Below are positions 52,070 through 59,990 of a stretch of DNA of 64,000 nucleotides, one piece after another. How positions within the stretch are numbered: the stretch's first letter is position 1; the number at the start of each line of letters is the position of its first letter. The position numbers and the translations under genes are program-made. The notes beneath the pieces were generated by a model, which did not search any database, was not told where the DNA came from, and saw only the letters and a program-made list of their open reading frames with translations. The stretch spans positions 7,007,501 through 7,071,500 of the forward strand of contig NZ_CP069338.1 in NCBI RefSeq assembly GCF_016859125.1. Reading direction: 5' to 3'. Origin of the DNA: Archangium violaceum. GTDB taxonomy: Bacteria > Myxococcota > Myxococcia > Myxococcales > Myxococcaceae.

Positions 52070-53440
52070 ATGAGCGTGGATCTTTTGCGTGAGCTCGCGT
52101 CCGTGCTGCCGCCGGATGCACTCGTCACCGACTCCGATGTGCTCGAGTCGCACCGCCGGGACCAGGCGGGGTGGGCTCCGGCTGGTACGCCTCGTGTCCT
52201 CGTCCGTCCCGCCTCGACGGCCGAGGTGCAGGCCGTGCTGCGTGTCGCCTCGGCCCTCCGTGTCCCCGTGGTCGCCCGCGGCGCGGGGTCGGGTTTGTCG
52301 GGCGGAGCCAATGCCGTGGATGGTTGCATCGTGCTCTCGCTCGCGCGGATGAACCGCATCCTGGAGATCGACCGGCGAGGACTGTTCGCCGTCGTCCAAC
52401 CGGGGGTGATCAACGGCGCGCTCAAGGCGGCCGCGGCGGAGCTGGGGCTCTGGTACGCGCCGGACCCCGCGAGTTGGGAGTTCTCGACGATTGGCGGCAA
52501 CCTCGCCACCAATGCCGGCGGCCTGTGTTGCGTGAAGTACGGCGTGACCGGGGATGCGGTGCTCGGGCTCGAGGCCGTCCTCGCGGATGGTTCCGTCGTC
52601 CGCACCGGTGGCCGCACGGTCAAGAACGTCGCGGGCTATGACCTCACCCGCTTGTTCGTGGGCTCCGAGGGGACGCTCGGCGTCATCACCGAGGCCACGT
52701 TGAAGCTCCGGCCGCGTCCGCCCCGGGCCACGACGCTGGTGGCCTCCTTCCCGACGCTCGTCGGGGCGGGGGCGGCGGTCACGGAGATCATGGCCGACAC
52801 CCGGCCCTCGCTGCTGGAGTTGATGGATCGCACGACCGTTCGGGCCGTCGAGGCCGCCAGGCCCATGGGGTTGGACGTCGAGGCCGCCGCGCTCCTGCTG
52901 GCGCGTTCGGATGCCGGGGGCGAGCAGGGCGTGGCCGAGTGCGCTCGGATGGTGGCCGCCTGTGAGGCCGCCGGGGCGACCTTCGTCGCGCACTCCGCCG
53001 ACGAGGCCGAGGGCGAGCTGCTGATGGGGGCTCGCCGGTTCGCCTTTCCCGCGCTCGAGCGGCAGGGCTCGACGCTGCTCGATGATGTCGGGGTGCCGGT
53101 CTCGCGCATCGCGGATCTACTCGCGGCGGTCGAGCGGATCGCCGAGCAGCGGGGGGTGCTCATCGGCACATTCGGACACGCGGGGGACGGGAACATGCAC
53201 CCCACGCTCGTCTTCGACCAGAACGACGCGGACGCGGTGGCGCGAGCCCGGGCGGCGTTCGACGACATCCTGCGCGTGGTGCTCGATATGGGCGGGACGA
53301 TCACCGGTGAGCACGGGGTCGGCTCGCTCAAGCGCCCGTTCATCGCGAGCCAGCTGGGCCCCGAGACCCACCGGCTCCACCTCGCCATCAAGGCCGCGGT
53401 GGATCCGCTCGGCCTCCTCAATCCCGGCAAGCTGCTCTGA
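52070..53440 (+). CDS. FAD-linked oxidase (GlcD/D-lactate dehydrogenase type)
   Basis: 456 residues. The FAD-binding PCMH part shows VARGAGSGLSGGANAV and STIGGNLATNAGGLCCVKYG. The C-terminal cap holds GHAGDGNMHP, TGEHGVGSLKR and the closing DPLGLLNPGKLL. This is the GlcD subunit fold, acting on 2-hydroxy acids such as glycolate or D-lactate. No GlcE or GlcF gene adjoins, so it may act alone. The ATG at 52070 fits family N-termini. Its last 23 bases overlap the end of the convergent metC-like gene. Confidence 0.9.
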   Translation: MSVDLLRELASVLPPDALVTDSDVLESHRRDQAGWAPAGTPRVLVRPASTAEVQAVLRVASALRVPVVARGAGSGLSGGANAVDGCIVLSLARMNRILEIDRRGLFAVVQPGVINGALKAAAAELGLWYAPDPASWEFSTIGGNLATNAGGLCCVKYGVTGDAVLGLEAVLADGSVVRTGGRTVKNVAGYDLTRLFVGSEGTLGVITEATLKLRPRPPRATTLVASFPTLVGAGAAVTEIMADTRPSLLELMDRTTVRAVEAARPMGLDVEAAALLLARSDAGGEQGVAECARMVAACEAAGATFVAHSADEAEGELLMGARRFAFPALERQGSTLLDDVGVPVSRIADLLAAVERIAEQRGVLIGTFGHAGDGNMHPTLVFDQNDADAVARARAAFDDILRVVLDMGGTITGEHGVGSLKRPFIASQLGPETHRLHLAIKAAVDPLGLLNPGKLL

Positions 53441-54617
53441 CCTCCTCGTCGAGGGCCTGATCGAGGTCTTCGAGGATGTCCTCGATGGCCTCCAGGCCCA
53501 CGGAGTAGCGCAGCAGCCCATCGCCGATTCCTCGCTGGAGCCGGACCTCGCGGGGCATGGCCGCATGGGACATCATGGCCGGGTAGGACAGGATGCTCTC
53601 CACCGCCCCGAGGCTGACCGCCACCAGGGGAAGGGTGACCCGCTCGAGCACCTGTTTCGCGCGAGCACCCGTGCCGACATCGAAGGACACGATGGCTCCG
53701 TAGCCGTGTGCCTGCCGCTCGTGGATGTCCCGTCCGGGGTGGCCCGGCAGTCCGGGGTAGTACACCCGAGACACCGCCGGGTGTCGGGACAGCCAGTCCG
53801 CCAGACGTCGTGCGTTCCGCTCGGCGCACTCCATCCGGGCCGTGAGCGTCTTCATTCCGCGCATCAGCAGCCACGCGTCCTGGACTCCCAGCACGCTGCC
53901 CAGGGCGTTCTGGAGATGCTTGAGCTGATGGCCCAGCTTCTCGTTGGCCACCACCGCGAGCCCCGCCAGCACGTCGCTGTGACCGCACAGGAACTTGGTC
54001 GCGCTGTGGAGCACGATGTCGATGCCCAGCTCGATCGGCCGCTGGAGGCAGGGCGTCATGAAGGTGTTGTCCAGCATCGTCAGCAGGCCGTGCTTCCTGG
54101 CCCACTCCGCCACGGCGGCGATGTCGGTGATCTTCAGGGTCGGATTGGAAGGCGTCTCCAGGAACACGGCCCGGGTGTTCGGCCTTCGCGCGGCCTCGAG
54201 CTGGTCCAGGTCGGTCATGTCGACGAAGGTCGTCTCGATGCCCATCCGGCCGAGGATCGTCGTCAGCAGGCGGTACGTTCCGCCATACACGTCCTCGCTA
54301 CAGAGGACGTGGTCGCCGTGGGAGAGCAGCATGAAGGCGGTGGAGATCGCCGCCATCCCCGAGGAGAAGGCGAAGCCCCGGGCTCCTCCCTCGAGCTCGG
54401 CGATGGTGTCCTCGAGCGCCTGGCGGGTCGGGTTGCCGGAGCGCGAGTAGTCGTACTCGGGAGGGTGCTCCAGCGAGGCGTGGTGGAAGGTGGAGGCCTG
54501 GTACAGCGGGATGCTGGAGGCGCCGGTATGCGCGTCCACGCTCGAGGCGGAGTGGAGCACGCGGGTGGCCAGCTTCCGGCCGGGGTGACGGCGTTGGATG
54601 TCTCTGGGTTGGCGCAT
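53418..54617 (-). CDS. metC: PLP-dependent trans-sulfuration enzyme, MetC-like (cystathionine beta-lyase type)
   Basis: 399 residues of the Cys/Met metabolism PLP family. The PLP lysine is in HSATKFLCGHSDVLAG. Phosphate-binding FSSGMAA lies near 90, EYDYSRSGNPTRQALE near 55 and SLGAVESILSYPAMMSHA near 345. It lies 8 bases after the metI-like gene and is third in a methionine operon, as in the metI-metC pair of Bacillus. That context suggests cystathionine beta-lyase; gamma-lyase or homocysteine-forming activity is possible, as the family cannot be split by motif alone. Confidence 0.82.
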   Translation of the reverse strand: MRQPRDIQRRHPGRKLATRVLHSASSVDAHTGASSIPLYQASTFHHASLEHPPEYDYSRSGNPTRQALEDTIAELEGGARGFAFSSGMAAISTAFMLLSHGDHVLCSEDVYGGTYRLLTTILGRMGIETTFVDMTDLDQLEAARRPNTRAVFLETPSNPTLKITDIAAVAEWARKHGLLTMLDNTFMTPCLQRPIELGIDIVLHSATKFLCGHSDVLAGLAVVANEKLGHQLKHLQNALGSVLGVQDAWLLMRGMKTLTARMECAERNARRLADWLSRHPAVSRVYYPGLPGHPGRDIHERQAHGYGAIVSFDVGTGARAKQVLERVTLPLVAVSLGAVESILSYPAMMSHAAMPREVRLQRGIGDGLLRYSVGLEAIEDILEDLDQALDEEVRAACRD

Positions 54618-54625
54618 GGGTTGCC

Positions 54626-55831
54626 TCACTGGCGAGCCGCGTCGAGTGCCTGGGAGAGATCCGCGATCAGATCCTCCACGTGCTCGATTCCCACCGAGTA
54701 CCGGAGCAGACGATCGTCCACGCCCACGCGGCGGCGGATCTCCTCCGGGATGTCCGCATGGGTCTGCACCGCCGGGTACGTCATCAGGGACTCCACTCCG
54801 CCGAGGCTCTCCGCGAAGGCAATCAGCCGCACGTGGCGCAGGAGCGGTTCGACGAGCCGGGCATCCTTCAACTTGAAGGAGAAGATGCCCGTGTTGCCCG
54901 AGGCCTGCCGCCGCTGGATGGCGTAGCCGGGATGGGTCTCGAAGCCCGGGTGGAAGACCTGCTCGACGAGCGGATGGGCTGCCAGCCACGTGGCGATGCG
55001 GAGCGCGTTCTCCTGGTGGCGCTCCATCCTCAACGCGAGCGTCTTCATTCCCCGCATGAGCAGCCAGCTGTCCTGCGGTCCCAGCACGGCCCCGATGGAG
55101 TTGTGCAGGAACGCGACCTGCTCGGACAGCGCCTTGTGCCGGGTCACGATGAGGCCCGCGAGGACGTCATTGTGCCCACCGAGGTACTTGGAGGCGCTGT
55201 GGACGACGATGTCCGCTCCCAGCTCGATGGGGCGCTGGAAGAAGGGGGTCAGCAGCGTGTTGTCCACGATGGAGAGCAGCTCGCGGGAGCGGGCCCAGCG
55301 GCAGACCTTCTCGAGGTCGGTGATCTTCATCAGCGGGTTGGTGGGCGTTTCGATCAACACCGCCTTCGTGTTGGGCCGGAGGTTCGCCTCGAGCGCGTCC
55401 AGATCGTTGGTGTCGACGTAGGTCGCGGAGATCCCGAAGCGGGAGAGGACCTTCTCCAGCAACCGGTACGTTCCCCCATACAGGTCGAGCGAGACGAGCA
55501 GGTGGGCTCCCTGGCTGAACAGGGAGAAGACGACCTGGAGCGCGGCCATGCCGGAGCTGCAGGCGAAGCCGGCGTCACCCGACTCGAGGTGCGCGATCGC
55601 GTCCTCCAGGACGGACCGCGTGGGGCTCTTCGTGCGCGCGTAGTCGAAGCCCGTGCTCTGTCCCAGGCATGGATGCCGGAAGGCGGTGGCGTGATGGATG
55701 GGGAGGCTGACCGCGCCCGTCACGGTGTCCGACACGGAACCAATCTGCGCCAGGTGGCTTTCAATCTTCATGTTCTGGAGACCCGTGGTGCTGGAGGTGG
55801 AGTGACGGGAGGGGAGGGGAGCGGAGCTCAT
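54626..55831 (-). CDS. metI: PLP-dependent cystathionine gamma-synthase/O-acetylhomoserine thiolyase, MetI-like
   Basis: 401 residues. Near the start LAQIGSVSDTVTGAVSLPIH and TGFDYARTKSPTR match Bacillus MetI closely. The PLP lysine is in HSASKYLGGHNDVLAG; CSSGMAALQ, LIETPTNPLM and AESLGGVESLMTYPA are further family blocks. It should join an activated homoserine with cysteine or sulfide. The ATG at 55831 overlaps the stop of the aspartokinase/homoserine dehydrogenase gene (ATGA); a second ATG 20 codons later is where the MetI similarity begins. Confidence 0.87.
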   Translation of the reverse strand: MSSAPLPSRHSTSSTTGLQNMKIESHLAQIGSVSDTVTGAVSLPIHHATAFRHPCLGQSTGFDYARTKSPTRSVLEDAIAHLESGDAGFACSSGMAALQVVFSLFSQGAHLLVSLDLYGGTYRLLEKVLSRFGISATYVDTNDLDALEANLRPNTKAVLIETPTNPLMKITDLEKVCRWARSRELLSIVDNTLLTPFFQRPIELGADIVVHSASKYLGGHNDVLAGLIVTRHKALSEQVAFLHNSIGAVLGPQDSWLLMRGMKTLALRMERHQENALRIATWLAAHPLVEQVFHPGFETHPGYAIQRRQASGNTGIFSFKLKDARLVEPLLRHVRLIAFAESLGGVESLMTYPAVQTHADIPEEIRRRVGVDDRLLRYSVGIEHVEDLIADLSQALDAARQ

Positions 55832-58347
55832 CTGCGCCCCCGGACGTTCTGGGCGAGGCGGAGGATGTCGGCGAGCACACCAGCGGCCGTGACATCACCT
55901 CCCGCGCCCGCGCCGCGGACGATGAGCGGGTACTCGCGGTAGCGCTCCGTGAAGAAGGACACCATCGCCTCGGCGCCCTTCAGCCCGGTGGCCGGGTGGG
56001 CCGCGTCCACCGCCACCGGGCCCACCTTCACGCGAGGGCCTCCGGGGGCATGGGGGAGGATCTGCGCCAGGTAGCGCAGGCTCCTGCCCGCGGAACGGTA
56101 GCGGGCCACCTGGGCGCTCACGTCCGGGTCCAGCGACGTCAGCGAACGCAGGAAGGCTTCCGGCTCGTCCACGTCGAGGTGCTCGCGCGGGACGAGCGGC
56201 TCCACGGTGACGTCCTCCAGGTCGAGCTCCAGGCCCAGCTCGCGGGCGAGGATGAGGGCCTTGCGTGCCACGTCCAGGCCCGACAGGTCATCGCGGGGGT
56301 GGGGCTCGGTGTAGCCGTTCGCGCGAGCCGTCCGCACCGCCTGGGACAGGGGGACTCCGTCCATCAACGCATGGCAGACGTAGCCGAGCGAGCCGGAGAA
56401 GCATCCCTCGATGCGCTCCACCCGGTCGCCGGTGCGCACCAGGTTCTTCAGCGTCTCGATGACCGGGAGGCTCGCGCCCACGGTGGTCTCGTAGTGCCAG
56501 GCGCGGAACTGCTCACGGGAGAGGGTGTGCAGCGCCGCGCTCTCCTTCCAGGGGCGAGCGAGCGGTTTCTTGTTGGCCGCCACCACGTGGATGCCTCGTC
56601 GGAAGGCCTCGGCGTAGAGGACATCCATTCCGTCCGCCGCGGTGCAATCCACCAGCACGGGGACGGACAGGCGGGACAGCCGCTCGAGCAGCGGCCCCAC
56701 GTCCGGAGGAGACTCGTGGCTCGGGGAGACCTTGGCGAGCCTCGCGAGCGCCTCGGCGGGAGGCACACCCGCGGGGTCGAAGAGCGCGCGGCGGCTGTCC
56801 ACCAGCCCCACCAGCCGCAGGGCCACGCCGTGCCGGGCCGCGAGCGCCTTCGCGTTCTGCGCGAGCTGGACGAGCAACCGTCCGCCCACCGTTCCCTTGC
56901 CGACGAGGAGGACGTTGATCTCCGTCTCGTTGAGGTTGAAGGCGCTGTGCACGGTGCGCACCGCCACGGCCGTGTCCTCGGCGTCCACGGCGCACGACAC
57001 GCTGCGGGAGCTCGCGCCCTGGAGGATGGCACGCACGTTCACGCCCACGTTCCCGAGCGCGTGGAAGAACCGGCCCGCCACATTCGGCCGGTGGCCCATG
57101 GACTCGGCGACCAGGGTGACCAGCGTCACCGGCGCATGGGGCGGCGGAACGCGGACCTCGTGCCGGTCGCGCTCACCGCGCAGCGCGGCCTCGAGCACGG
57201 CATGCGCCCGCTGGGCCTGGGCCTGGGGCACCACCAGGGAGATGGACGGCGCCTGCGCGGACAGGGTCCCTCCCCACACCGTGACCTGCGCCGCCTCGAG
57301 CGCCTGCAACACGCGCAGCCCGAGCGGCTCGCTGAGCGTGGGACGCAGCGACTCGACGTGGAGCAGGGCCAGACGCTCCAGGCTCGTCACGCTGGTGGGC
57401 CGGTGGGGATCCGGATTGCCCTCGGCATCGATGCACGTGCCCGGCGCCTCGGGCTCGGTGGTGCTGCGGATGTGCAGGGCCGCTCCGCTCTCGAGCAGCG
57501 GAATCATCGTGCGGGGGTGGAACATCCGGGTGCCGAAGTGGGCCAGCTCGAGCGCCTCCGCGTAGGTCATGCGCGGCACGGGGTAGGCGTCGCGAACCAG
57601 GGCCGGGTCGGCCGTCATGACTCCGGGCACGTCCGTCCACACCGTGACCTGGGGGGCACCGAGGAGCCACGAGAGCAGTGTCGCGGTGTAGTCGGAGCCA
57701 TTGCGGCCCAGCGTGGTGGTCCGCCCCTGGTGCGAGCGGGCGATGAACCCCGTGATGACGGGCACCACGCCTTCCCACCCGGACACGAGCGGCGAGAGCT
57801 TCGCGCGGCTCGCGTCGATGTCGACCCGGGCCGAGCCGGCGGTCTCGTCCGTGACGAGGAAGGTGCGGGCGTCCACGGCGCGGGCGGGGACTCCCCGGGT
57901 CGTCAGGGCCCGCGCGACCAGCTCGGAGGAGATGCGCTCTCCCACGGACATCACCTCGTCGAGCGTGGCGGGTGTGCACTCCCGGGTCAGCTCCACGCCC
58001 GTGAGGAGCCGCTCGATGGGCGCCAGGAGTTGCTCCACCGTGGCCTCGTGCGCGGAGAGGGCGGGGCCCTCGAGGACCGTGCTCGCGATCGACCTCGCGA
58101 GGTTCCGGACGCGCGTCAGCTCCACGCTCGTGCCGGCTGTATCTCCGCTCGCGGCGGCTCGGGCCGCGGAGATCAACCAATCCGTGGTGTCGCCGAGCGC
58201 GGACACCACGACCGCGAGCGGGCGCTGCGCGTCGGTGATGAGGGAGAGGACACGCGGCAGCCGTCCGGGTGTTCCGAGAGAGGAGCCGCCGAATTTATAG
58301 ACACGCCATGCACGGCTCTCGGAGCCGTGAAGAGAGGCATTGCTCAA
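55828..58347 (-). CDS. bifunctional aspartokinase/homoserine dehydrogenase
   Basis: 839 residues, close to the 810-820 of ThrA/MetL. The aspartokinase part has VYKFGGSSLGTP, MSVGERISSEL, TLGRNGSDYTATLL and FGTRMFHPRT. Two ACT-like regulatory segments follow (LLHVESLRPTLSEPLGLRVL, GVNVRAILQGASSRS). The dehydrogenase part has the nucleotide loop NVLLVGKGTVGGRLLVQL, VAANKKPLAR and GCFSGSLGYVC. It makes homoserine for methionine and threonine. It heads the operon with metI and metC, which suggests the MetL-like role. The TTG at 58347 with GGCAGGA before it is chosen; no ATG fits better. A long leader precedes it. Confidence 0.92.
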   Translation of the reverse strand: MSNASLHGSESRAWRVYKFGGSSLGTPGRLPRVLSLITDAQRPLAVVVSALGDTTDWLISAARAAASGDTAGTSVELTRVRNLARSIASTVLEGPALSAHEATVEQLLAPIERLLTGVELTRECTPATLDEVMSVGERISSELVARALTTRGVPARAVDARTFLVTDETAGSARVDIDASRAKLSPLVSGWEGVVPVITGFIARSHQGRTTTLGRNGSDYTATLLSWLLGAPQVTVWTDVPGVMTADPALVRDAYPVPRMTYAEALELAHFGTRMFHPRTMIPLLESGAALHIRSTTEPEAPGTCIDAEGNPDPHRPTSVTSLERLALLHVESLRPTLSEPLGLRVLQALEAAQVTVWGGTLSAQAPSISLVVPQAQAQRAHAVLEAALRGERDRHEVRVPPPHAPVTLVTLVAESMGHRPNVAGRFFHALGNVGVNVRAILQGASSRSVSCAVDAEDTAVAVRTVHSAFNLNETEINVLLVGKGTVGGRLLVQLAQNAKALAARHGVALRLVGLVDSRRALFDPAGVPPAEALARLAKVSPSHESPPDVGPLLERLSRLSVPVLVDCTAADGMDVLYAEAFRRGIHVVAANKKPLARPWKESAALHTLSREQFRAWHYETTVGASLPVIETLKNLVRTGDRVERIEGCFSGSLGYVCHALMDGVPLSQAVRTARANGYTEPHPRDDLSGLDVARKALILARELGLELDLEDVTVEPLVPREHLDVDEPEAFLRSLTSLDPDVSAQVARYRSAGRSLRYLAQILPHAPGGPRVKVGPVAVDAAHPATGLKGAEAMVSFFTERYREYPLIVRGAGAGGDVTAAGVLADILRLAQNVRGRR

Positions 58348-58435
58348 GGGGTCCTGCCTTTCGAGGAACTGCGTGGGTGGGGAACCGCGGCCCACGGCGA
58401 AAGGCGGACGTCAGAGGTGTCCTCAGGACGTAGCC

Positions 58436-58480
58436 GAGCCGCGGACGGTGTCAGGTCGGAAACCCGGGCACCCGCGGCTC
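58436..58480 (-). promoter_or_regulatory. strong hairpin in the leader of the methionine operon
   Basis: In the RNA, GAGCCGCGG pairs with CCGCGGCUC, extended inside by GGUG with CACC. It begins 18 bases after the stop of the Met-rich leader peptide. Just downstream, two copies of ACGTCC flank GGAC (58406-58431), so mutually exclusive pairings are possible. There is no clear U run. The placing is that of a transcription or translation attenuator. It shows no SAM-I riboswitch consensus. Confidence 0.5.
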
Positions 58481-58498
58481 TTCACTGGGAGAGGTCAG

Positions 58499-58582
58499 CT
58501 AGAAACGGCTGGAAGCCCATCCTCCCGCGAACGCGCGCATGCCCGGGCCACGCATGAGCATGGCCTCCATGGACATCGGCAT
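58499..58582 (-). CDS. Met-rich leader peptide upstream of the methionine operon
   Basis: A 27-codon frame starts MPMSMEAMLMRGPGM and ends with TAG. Six of its first fifteen residues are Met, encoded by ATGs at 58582, 58576, 58570, 58561, 58555 and 58540. It lies about 40 bases after a good promoter and 151 bases before the start of the aspartokinase/homoserine dehydrogenase gene, and is followed by a strong hairpin. This is the classical attenuator layout: scarce Met-tRNA would stall the ribosome and change leader folding. No strong Shine-Dalgarno is visible before the first ATG. Peptide function is inferred from composition and place. Confidence 0.6.
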   Translation of the reverse strand: MPMSMEAMLMRGPGMRAFAGGWASSRF

Positions 58583-58628
58583 TCGGGTGACAGGACAGGA
58601 CACGTGATTCTCCAGACGAACGCAGGTG

Positions 58629-58657
58629 CAATAACAAGGAACGGAGAGCCCTGTCAA
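58629..58657 (-). promoter_or_regulatory. sigma-70-type promoter of the methionine operon
   Basis: On the minus strand TTGACA (58657-58652) is followed after exactly 17 bases by TTATTG (58634-58629). Transcription would start near 58621, giving a leader of about 275 bases before the first operon gene. It lies just after the stop of the FAD oxidoreductase gene, in the only spacer upstream. Confidence 0.65.
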
Positions 58658-58682
58658 TCGCGTGCTGTGTCTGTGTTCACCA

Positions 58683-59990
58683 TCAACCGCGCGCGCCGGG
58701 GACGAGCCGGCGCAGGTCGTTCGTGATGCCGCGAGCCAACGCCCCGAGAAGGACGTTGGGCGGGGCCCACCCCTCGGGGGCGATGCGGCGGGCGAGCAGG
58801 AGCGAGAAGCGCCGCATGTATTCGCCGTCGGTCATCATCCACCGGAGCACGCTCCTGGCGGCCCAGGGGGGCAGCTCGGTGTAGATCTCCCGCTTCACCC
58901 GGTCGAGCGTGGCGTGGAACATGGCGCGGGTGGCGGAGAGCGCTTCCCGCTCGTAGCGCGCGATGGCTTCTTCCCAGCTGACGGCCCCCTGCTTCCAGTC
59001 GACGAGCGCGGCCGCGAGCAGCTTGCTCTCGAGCAGGGCGTCATAGATGCCCTGTGCATCGATGGTGTCCTTCTGGTGGAAGGCGTCACCGACGAGCACC
59101 CATCCGGGACCGCCCGCCTGACGGTACAGGTTGCCGATCCGCTTGATGCCGCGGATGGAAGAGACCTGCGTGGCGTGGGCCAGGCGCCGCCAGATCGCCG
59201 GATACCGGCGGAGGCCCTCGAGGTAATAGGCCTGGGCATCACCGGTGACCAGGAAGCGGTCGGAGCGCCCCTGGAAGACGACGCCCGCACGGCCCTCGGT
59301 GGTCGGCATGACGATCAGGGAGAACCCGTCCCCGGCGGTGTGGATCTGGATGCCCGTGGGCTCGGCGTCGTAGGGCGCGTATCCGGACCAGTAGGCATAC
59401 AGCGACGAGGTATCGACATCCGTGCGCTGCTCGGTGACGCGCGCGCCGGCCTCGCGTGCGACCAGACTGTAGCGACCATCGGCGCCGACGACGCAGCGGC
59501 CCGCGATGACCTGCTCCGTTCCGTCCTCGAGGCGAACCTTGATCCCGGAGATCCGCCCGGAGGCGTCACGCTCGAGCGCGTTGACATGCGCGCCCTCGAG
59601 CCGGGTGACCGAGTCGAAGCGGGAGAGGTGATTCCAGAGGCAGCCGTCGAGCCGTGCGCGATCGACGGTGTAGATGTAGTCGCGGCCACCCACCTCGGCG
59701 ATGGTGCAGTGGGCGCGGAAGTAGTCCTTGTACTCGACGAAGAAGTGCCGCAGGCGCGGCGCGTCGTGTGCGTACTCGGACTCGGGCACCTCGAGCTCGT
59801 CGAGCAGGCTCATGGCGCTGTTCATGAGGAACGGCACCGACACCGGCGGCGCGCTGGGGAAGTTCGCCCGATCGACGATCAGCACGCGCATGCCATGGCG
59901 GCCCAGACGCATGGCCAGGGTGGCTCCCGCGGGGCGCCCGCCAACGATGATGACGTCGTAGGGTTCGGAGGATGGTCGCGTGGTGCTCAT
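58683..59990 (-). CDS. FAD-dependent oxidoreductase (halogenase/geranylgeranyl-reductase-like fold)
   Basis: 435 residues from an ATG with AAGGAG before it. The N-terminal FAD fingerprint is DVIIVGGRPAGATLAMRLGR. The second FAD motif is GWVLVGDAFHQKDTIDAQGI near 310, and a middle GADGRYSLVAR. This is the p-hydroxybenzoate-hydroxylase-like superfamily, which includes monooxygenases, halogenases and prenyl reductases. The halogenase WxWxIP motif is not present, so halogenation is unlikely. It stands between an ABC-F gene and the methionine operon, all on the minus strand. Substrate is unknown. Confidence 0.85.
   Translation of the reverse strand: MSTTRPSSEPYDVIIVGGRPAGATLAMRLGRHGMRVLIVDRANFPSAPPVSVPFLMNSAMSLLDELEVPESEYAHDAPRLRHFFVEYKDYFRAHCTIAEVGGRDYIYTVDRARLDGCLWNHLSRFDSVTRLEGAHVNALERDASGRISGIKVRLEDGTEQVIAGRCVVGADGRYSLVAREAGARVTEQRTDVDTSSLYAYWSGYAPYDAEPTGIQIHTAGDGFSLIVMPTTEGRAGVVFQGRSDRFLVTGDAQAYYLEGLRRYPAIWRRLAHATQVSSIRGIKRIGNLYRQAGGPGWVLVGDAFHQKDTIDAQGIYDALLESKLLAAALVDWKQGAVSWEEAIARYEREALSATRAMFHATLDRVKREIYTELPPWAARSVLRWMMTDGEYMRRFSLLLARRIAPEGWAPPNVLLGALARGITNDLRRLVPGARG

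Follow-up and report, generated by a model that had tools for sequence, protein, structure and literature searches.

Attenuation through leader peptides has been described for many amino acids; methionine is a special case, since its codon also starts proteins. In enteric bacteria, the thrABC leader is an attenuator with threonine and isoleucine codons that stands before the gene of the bifunctional aspartokinase/homoserine dehydrogenase (AK-HSD) I. Here, we analyse a candidate methionine leader of Archangium violaceum, on the minus strand (positions 58657-58347) of a stretch of 64,000 nucleotides that we call the window (contig NZ_CP069338.1, positions 7,007,501 to 7,071,500). Like thrABC, it precedes an AK-HSD I-type gene (the window product passes the NCBIfam model NF006959 with 742.9 bits, for a cut-off of 726), but it carries six Met codons where the enteric leader has Thr and Ile codons.

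The nearest published case that we found is a predicted leader, metL of Streptomyces lividans, proposed from RNA-seq upstream of metNIQ and containing several Met codons (MSTTSDRTPATEATTTPGARCMCRRMCAF, followed by a stop; PMC8079986). Both metL and the Archangium leader are short Met-codon frames before methionine genes, and neither has a typical Rho-independent terminator. The two differ in phylum and in context: metL precedes a transporter operon, whereas the operons studied here are biosynthetic and their pairings were compared across genera. Actinobacteria also have cysteine leader peptides, described as runs of Cys codons before sulfur genes without terminator hairpins, for which Rho was suggested (Seliverstov et al. 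2005, PMC1262725). They resemble our leaders in using runs of sulfur amino acid codons, but the myxobacterial Cys leaders presented below have hairpins. For the methionine operons of Actinobacteria, the same paper reports no conserved RNA structure upstream (PMC1262725). Among the open-licence papers listed by our literature search, judged by their titles and abstract openings, none concerned a methionine leader-peptide attenuator in myxobacteria. In the searchable literature, metL was the one Met-codon leader found, and a predicted one. An earlier reading of this locus made from the DNA alone (hereafter the sequence-only reading) had noted that such attenuation has rarely been described.

We propose that the Archangium leader is a ribosome-mediated attenuator, and comparative analysis and folding models indicate that methionyl-tRNA is probably its signal. 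RNA polymerase would transcribe the leader with a ribosome following behind. When methionyl-tRNA is scarce, the ribosome would stall on the first five Met codons (58582-58553), among which the pair at 58561 and 58555 is the most conserved. Segment 2 (58547-58531) would then pair with segment 3 (58478-58463) in the nascent RNA, and with segment 3 held in this 2:3 helix hairpin 3:4 could not form, so that the AK-HSD operon would be expressed. When methionine is plentiful, the ribosome would cover segment 2 and reach the stop codon, 3:4 would form, and expression would end early, via Rho or a non-canonical terminator. The promoter, the frame, the Met codons and the pairings are conserved, and the antiterminator depends on the position of the ribosome in the folding model; we infer that the leader is translated, that ribosomes stall and that termination occurs at 3:4. 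The idea of a Met-codon attenuator, put forward in the sequence-only reading, is supported computationally by the conserved Met codons, by the kept alternative pairings and by parallel leaders with Met/Cys codons before metY and with Cys codons elsewhere. The elements of the leader are as follows.

58629-58657, minus strand: promoter, read from the sequence, with TTGACA (58657-58652), a 17-base spacer and TTATTG (58634-58629)
58610-58613, minus strand: likely Shine-Dalgarno GGAG of the leader frame; GGAG, 6 bases and GTG or TTG occur in 6 of 6 Archangium leaders
58499-58603, minus strand: leader frame (M)SCPVTRMPMSMEAMLMRGPGMRAFAGGWASSRF and stop, GTG start, 34 codons, with relatives in L002-L006, L118, L119, L122 and L123
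58546-58565, minus strand: hairpin 1, GGCCAUGC-UCAU-GCGUGGCC, over the Met codons AUG-CUC-AUG; stem invariant in 10 of 10 leaders, one loop base variable
58531-58547, minus strand: segment 2, CCCGGGCAUGCGCGCGU, 5' strand of the antiterminator, in frame just past the fifth Met codon
58463-58478, minus strand: segment 3, GCCGCGGGUGCCCGGG, partner of segment 2 or of segment 4
58436-58480, minus strand: hairpin 3:4, GAGCCGCGG...CCGCGGCUC, the proposed OFF structure, without a U-tract after it

The 27-codon frame with six Met among its first fifteen residues is present on the minus strand as first noted, running from ATG 58582 to the stop TAG at 58501-58499 (MPMSMEAMLMRGPGMRAFAGGWASSRF). The promoter was said to be good. 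Both hexamers and their 17-base spacing are there, and TTGACA is kept in all ten aligned leaders (window leader included), but the second hexamer, TTATTG, is poor and a sigma-70 promoter scan found no promoter at the leader. The real start is probably GTG 58603, seven codons upstream of the ATG, giving (M)SCPVTRMPMSM..., because GGAG, six bases and an in-frame GTG or TTG are kept in all six Archangium genomes. An attenuator is expected to show clustered codons for the product of its pathway behind a promoter, and here we find six internal Met codons, at 58582, 58576, 58570, 58561, 58555 and 58540. Across ten leaders, Met accounts for 53 of 318 residues, against 2.18% of the 3252 residues of six window proteins. 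The window leader has one Thr and no Ile, and on this ground we rejected a threonine/isoleucine attenuator. Open frames are common at such a G+C content, and this could have produced a Met-rich frame by chance in an untranslated leader. We find this hardly credible: among the 1185 ATG-started open 15-codon stretches of the window, the only one with six Met is the leader itself, as expected if six Met by chance are very unlikely, and the frame is conserved across four genera and has matching families.

We sought AK-HSD in 96 genomes of the family and obtained 30 loci. The ten leaders of set A come from four genera: the window leader (L001), L002-L006, L118, L119, L122 and L123. The leader is found upstream of AK-HSD in all six Archangium genomes, with 95-100% identity over the matched stretch. 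It also precedes metY-metX-AK-HSD in G001, G045, G081 and G082, four genomes from three further genera, and therefore belongs to a methionine operon. The alignment revealed no general loss of the Met codons in relatives: all six are identical in the six Archangium genomes, and the central pair, EAM.M, is present in 10/10 leaders, while the outer ones vary and are gone in L123. The alternative pairings were kept as well, with compensatory changes in two leaders. MRGPG is present in all ten peptides, among them (M)SCPVTRMPMSMEAMLMRGPGMRAFAGGWASSRF in the window, (M)TLIRSRMPMSMEAMLMRGPGMRAFAGECCPSCCR in L118, MKSSSASMWMCPEAMLMRGPGMRASAGECCCGCRI in L119, MRKFTSQMRRSMRLEAMHMRGPGGRPVAGECCRRCC in L122 and (M)RQFTSRTGRITAEAMRMRGPGGRPVAGECCRCC in L123. 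In 147 genomes of the class, a covariance model built on the ten leaders retrieved only these ten and a single weak additional match, in G040 (E 0.003). It gives one leader per genome, and we found no convincing second copy.

The strong hairpin with alternative pairings announced by the sequence-only reading is recovered by folding. In the window leader, hairpin 3:4 (stretch 58484-58433) has an energy of -27.3 kcal/mol (z -2.2) and the competing antiterminator fold (stretch 58566-58462) one of -58.4 kcal/mol (z -3.2). The other ten stretches folded have z from -0.3 to -2.5; the pieces from L002, L003, L006 and L119 cut into the hairpin, and those used for 3:4 in L118, L122 and L123 left it whole. 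In the consensus fold of the ten leaders, hairpin 1 covers AUG-CNC-AUG. Helix 2:3 has 14 pairs, with 93.6% of the cells paired versus at most 49.3% when the helix is slid, a comparison that favours 2:3 since this structure was derived from the same alignment. Three of its pairs change on both sides, in L122/L123, and none of 500 shuffles matches its paired fraction, its doubly changed cells or its covariation score. Segment 3 forms a downstream hairpin in 10/10 leaders, with a partner whose sequence differs in L119, L122 and L123. Hence, 2:3 and 3:4 are kept in the relatives as mutually exclusive structures, as expected of an attenuator.

In the classical kinetic model of attenuation, the antiterminator choice is made with RNA ending just behind segment 3. 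We folded the RNA ahead of the ribosome, starting 13 bases from the A-site codon. When the RNA ends there, all ten leaders form the antiterminator with the ribosome at any internal Met codon through the fifth, and none of them forms it at the stop or at the sixth Met, which eight leaders have. In L119 and L122, a few early codons also give no antiterminator. Met makes up 45 of the 169 'on' codons and 8 of the 149 'off' codons of set A (these rows are related, and P values for on/off counts are not independent). The cut-RNA folds cover native leaders, and the comparison with shuffles covers equilibrium folds only. At equilibrium, with segment 4 included, 10/10 leaders adopt 2:3 when the A site is at the EAM Met and 3:4 when it is at the stop.

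Similar leaders precede metY. This gene is listed in 46 of the 96 genomes; we took 30 loci and aligned 26 leaders (set B), after dropping L141 and L143 (SAM-I/IV riboswitch), L144 (no segment 3) and L150 (near a contig end). The other 16 metY genomes are not in the alignment: four of them are in set A, L120 and L121 come from two without a Met leader, and L125 comes from a third. All 26 leaders share a promoter, and the distance from the first base of its TTGACA or TTGACT to an ATG is 37-39 bases in each, so that the metY leaders are nearly leaderless. The same appears to hold for the non-Archangium leaders of set A, and the metL transcript of S. lividans is likewise described as leaderless (PMC8079986). 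The metY leaders consist of Met codons, with or without Cys codons, then GGTGGGC, GAGCCCA[CT]C and GGTGGGCT segments, often with a CGTCGTTTC-like sequence after them, and their 582 residues include 67 Met and 39 Cys. In cut RNA, the antiterminator forms at the control codons in 26/26 leaders and nowhere between the Gly-Gly codons and the stop, these included. The final Met codon of the cluster gives no more than a partial 'on' state in L127, L128 and L137, and it is 'off' in L152 and L153; several leaders are also 'off' at their early codons. Met or Cys occupies 96 of the 295 'on' codons versus 10 of the 287 others. L144 (G026) lacks segments 3 and 4, and is perhaps a natural hairpin-less variant or an assembly fault; L120 and L121 have a different leader, whose hairpin is CCTCCGTCGTGGCGGAGG and whose frame shows no clustering of Met or Cys.

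A model of the metY leaders has matches in 61 of the 147 genomes at E 0.001, some of them weak. We read 20 further sites: five are metY-like Met leaders (the three whose gene was read stand ahead of a metX-like frame, as judged by eye), twelve are Cys-rich and the remaining three were set aside. Despite its Cys pair, L198 does not enter the counts; L199 and L200, matches of the metY model in another family that resemble plain terminators, were dropped. The Cys-rich leaders, for example MTFAPSTACCCCDAPAVGACPPAA and MSTPSRQEVCCCCRSRRWALVRRQRGG, have 39 Cys and 6 Met among 295 residues, a Cys share due in part to selection, since we chose the frame with most Cys around the Cys cluster. In sets A and B, segment 2 defined the reading frame, and we took as its start the first start codon past the estimated transcription start. 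Eight of the twelve precede genes of sulfate-binding proteins (L187-L191 with profile support, L194, L196 and L197 by eye). The other four (L192, L193, L195 and L201) precede a Peripla_BP_2 transporter protein in two cases and a porin O/P gene in two, of which L192 and L195, one of each kind, had their downstream genes profile-tested. A sulfate-binding protein with a Cys leader occurs in 5/6 Archangium genomes, the genome of the window being the exception. By eye, U-rich tails follow several metY and Cys leader hairpins. Overall, the codons track the gene: Met/Cys before metY, and Cys mostly before sulfate-binding proteins. In the other three genera of set A, the Met codons lie inside the switch window of the leader and a Cys cluster (GECC..) lies behind it; in many metY leaders, the two kinds of codon are mixed within the window of the switch. 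It is conceivable, if unlikely, that the leader RNA reads charged Met and Cys tRNAs with different sign or weight, as a two-input sulfur gate exchanged in evolution with the SAM-I/IV riboswitch at the same gene.

Several observations weigh against attenuation by Met codons. Among the leaders themselves, L123 retains only two internal Met codons, L009 and L010 do not have this leader, and the frame is eight codons shorter at its end in L003 and L005. Concerning the pairings, 52 of 500 shuffles match the number of 2:3 pairs changed on both sides and 146 match the pair types, and the 3:4 hairpins of L118, L122 and L123 are unremarkable for their composition (z -1.6, -0.8 and -1.4). At equilibrium, the window leader gives 3:4 at the second, third and fifth Met codons, the fifth Met (LM or equivalent) does so in 8/10 leaders, and the metY leaders with segment 4 fold to 3:4 at every codon in 24/26 cases. 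The effect of ribosome position is smaller with footprints of 15-16 bases, and losses of 3:4 pairs as large as those of the ten leaders occur in 19, 25, 2, 14, 15, 8, 41, 21, 48 and 30 of 100 dinucleotide shuffles, respectively. Since comparable losses are so frequent in shuffles, the equilibrium switch alone is not significant; we dropped it as proof, and the case rests on the specific helix and the cut-RNA folds. When Met and Cys are counted together in the cut-RNA folds of set A, they make up 50 of 169 'on' and 24 of 149 'off' codons; Cys raises the 'off' count because the Cys tails lie behind the switch window. Finally, no U-tract or terminator-like site was found behind 3:4 (58300-58750 searched), and we therefore do not file the leader as a classical intrinsic-terminator attenuator. 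The computed evidence supports a leader that acts like a leader-peptide attenuator, with methionine as the signal.

A 3:4 hairpin without U-tract would also suit translational attenuation, where a stall would free the Shine-Dalgarno of AK-HSD from a CCUUUCG/CGAAAGG hairpin. Such a hairpin is present.

58356-58405, minus strand: hairpin GCCUUUCG...CGAAAGGC, which can cover the AK-HSD Shine-Dalgarno; effect inconsistent between species

In L002, L003, L005 and L006, a ribosome stalled at the Met codons leaves the Shine-Dalgarno more open than one at the stop does. But the opening is slight in L004, disappears at the central Met in L001 and does not occur in L118, L119, L122 and L123, which are of the metY type. 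The effect is not conserved; we rejected sequestration as the main mechanism and consider translational attenuation improbable.

The core of the leader raises two other explanations. Its third codon positions are invariant and the sole variable base alters the amino acid (L/H/R), another point that sits uneasily with codon reading and from which we conclude that selection in the core acts on the RNA. Conservation at the nucleotide level, together with the SAM-I/IV riboswitch at the same gene in sister genera, would fit a metabolite-binding RNA, an unknown riboswitch of which the Met codons are a by-product. We regard this as quite improbable. No Rfam family reaches the gathering threshold in the window or in L002-L006 (between 58300 and 58800 there are only five matches, all far below their gathering scores), and many of the invariant bases sit in hairpin 1 and helix 2:3. 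Translation is indicated by the Met codons that lie outside the hairpin, by the conserved starts and by TGT/TGC Cys swaps between L122 and L123, and the other metY and sulfate leaders obey a similar codon logic. The nascent ...EAM.MRGPG... peptide might itself arrest the ribosome on Met or S-adenosylmethionine (SAM), irrespective of codon counting; MRGPG in 10/10 leaders speaks for this, as do the MR frames (often RMRGP or RMRRPGG) behind the SAM-I/IV aptamer of sister genera. The invariant synonymous positions of the core, the residue that varies between L, H and R, and the fact that the metY and Cys families share codons and not a peptide make such an arrest very improbable.

The homoserine/methionine operon that the sequence-only reading placed downstream of the leader was recovered in our analysis, with AK-HSD followed by two Cys/Met metabolism pyridoxal phosphate (PLP) enzymes.

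55828-58347, minus strand: bifunctional AK-HSD, TTG start, profile match
54626-55831, minus strand: Cys/Met metabolism PLP enzyme of the cystathionine gamma-synthase/lyase type, PF01053 profile match
53418-54620, minus strand: second Cys/Met metabolism PLP enzyme, cystathionine lyase type, PF01053 profile match, start unsettled

This operon is without MetX and MetY, both of which follow the same leader in the four genomes of the three other genera. The genome carrying the window (12.7 Mb) keeps a metY-metX-homoserine dehydrogenase operon at another place; metY-metX was apparently lost from the leader locus in Archangium.

In sister genera, the same gene is preceded by the SAM-I/IV riboswitch RF01725. 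It serves the same pathway end product as the Archangium leader, but reads SAM by its aptamer. In the AK-HSD tree (30 rows, midpoint-rooted for drawing only), 17 rows form one group (100/100) and have the riboswitch at all 17 loci, while 10 of the 12 rows of the other side have the Met leader (L009 and L010 being the two without). The riboswitch also precedes AK-HSD in L103-L105, two of which were missed by a stricter-filter genome scan; the same scan, with this limit, gave no RF01725 match in the six Archangium genomes. That one group may use a leader peptide where another has a T-box or a riboswitch is called well known in PMC2965389. The metY genes of L141 (G041) and L143 (G080) have a SAM-I/IV riboswitch in place of the Met/Cys leader. 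A short frame with MR, often ending in RMRGP.. or RMRRPGG.., follows the SAM-I/IV aptamer in 23/23 loci (L014-L030, L103-L105, L110, L111 and L114), and could represent a remnant or a second control in tandem.

The Archangium leader is thus a conserved candidate with mutually exclusive folds and with kin leaders whose codons match their pathways (Met, Met/Cys and Cys), standing at the SAM-I/IV site of sister genera. It would thereby provide a case, open to direct testing, in which a metabolite riboswitch and a sensor of tRNA charging replace one another at one gene.

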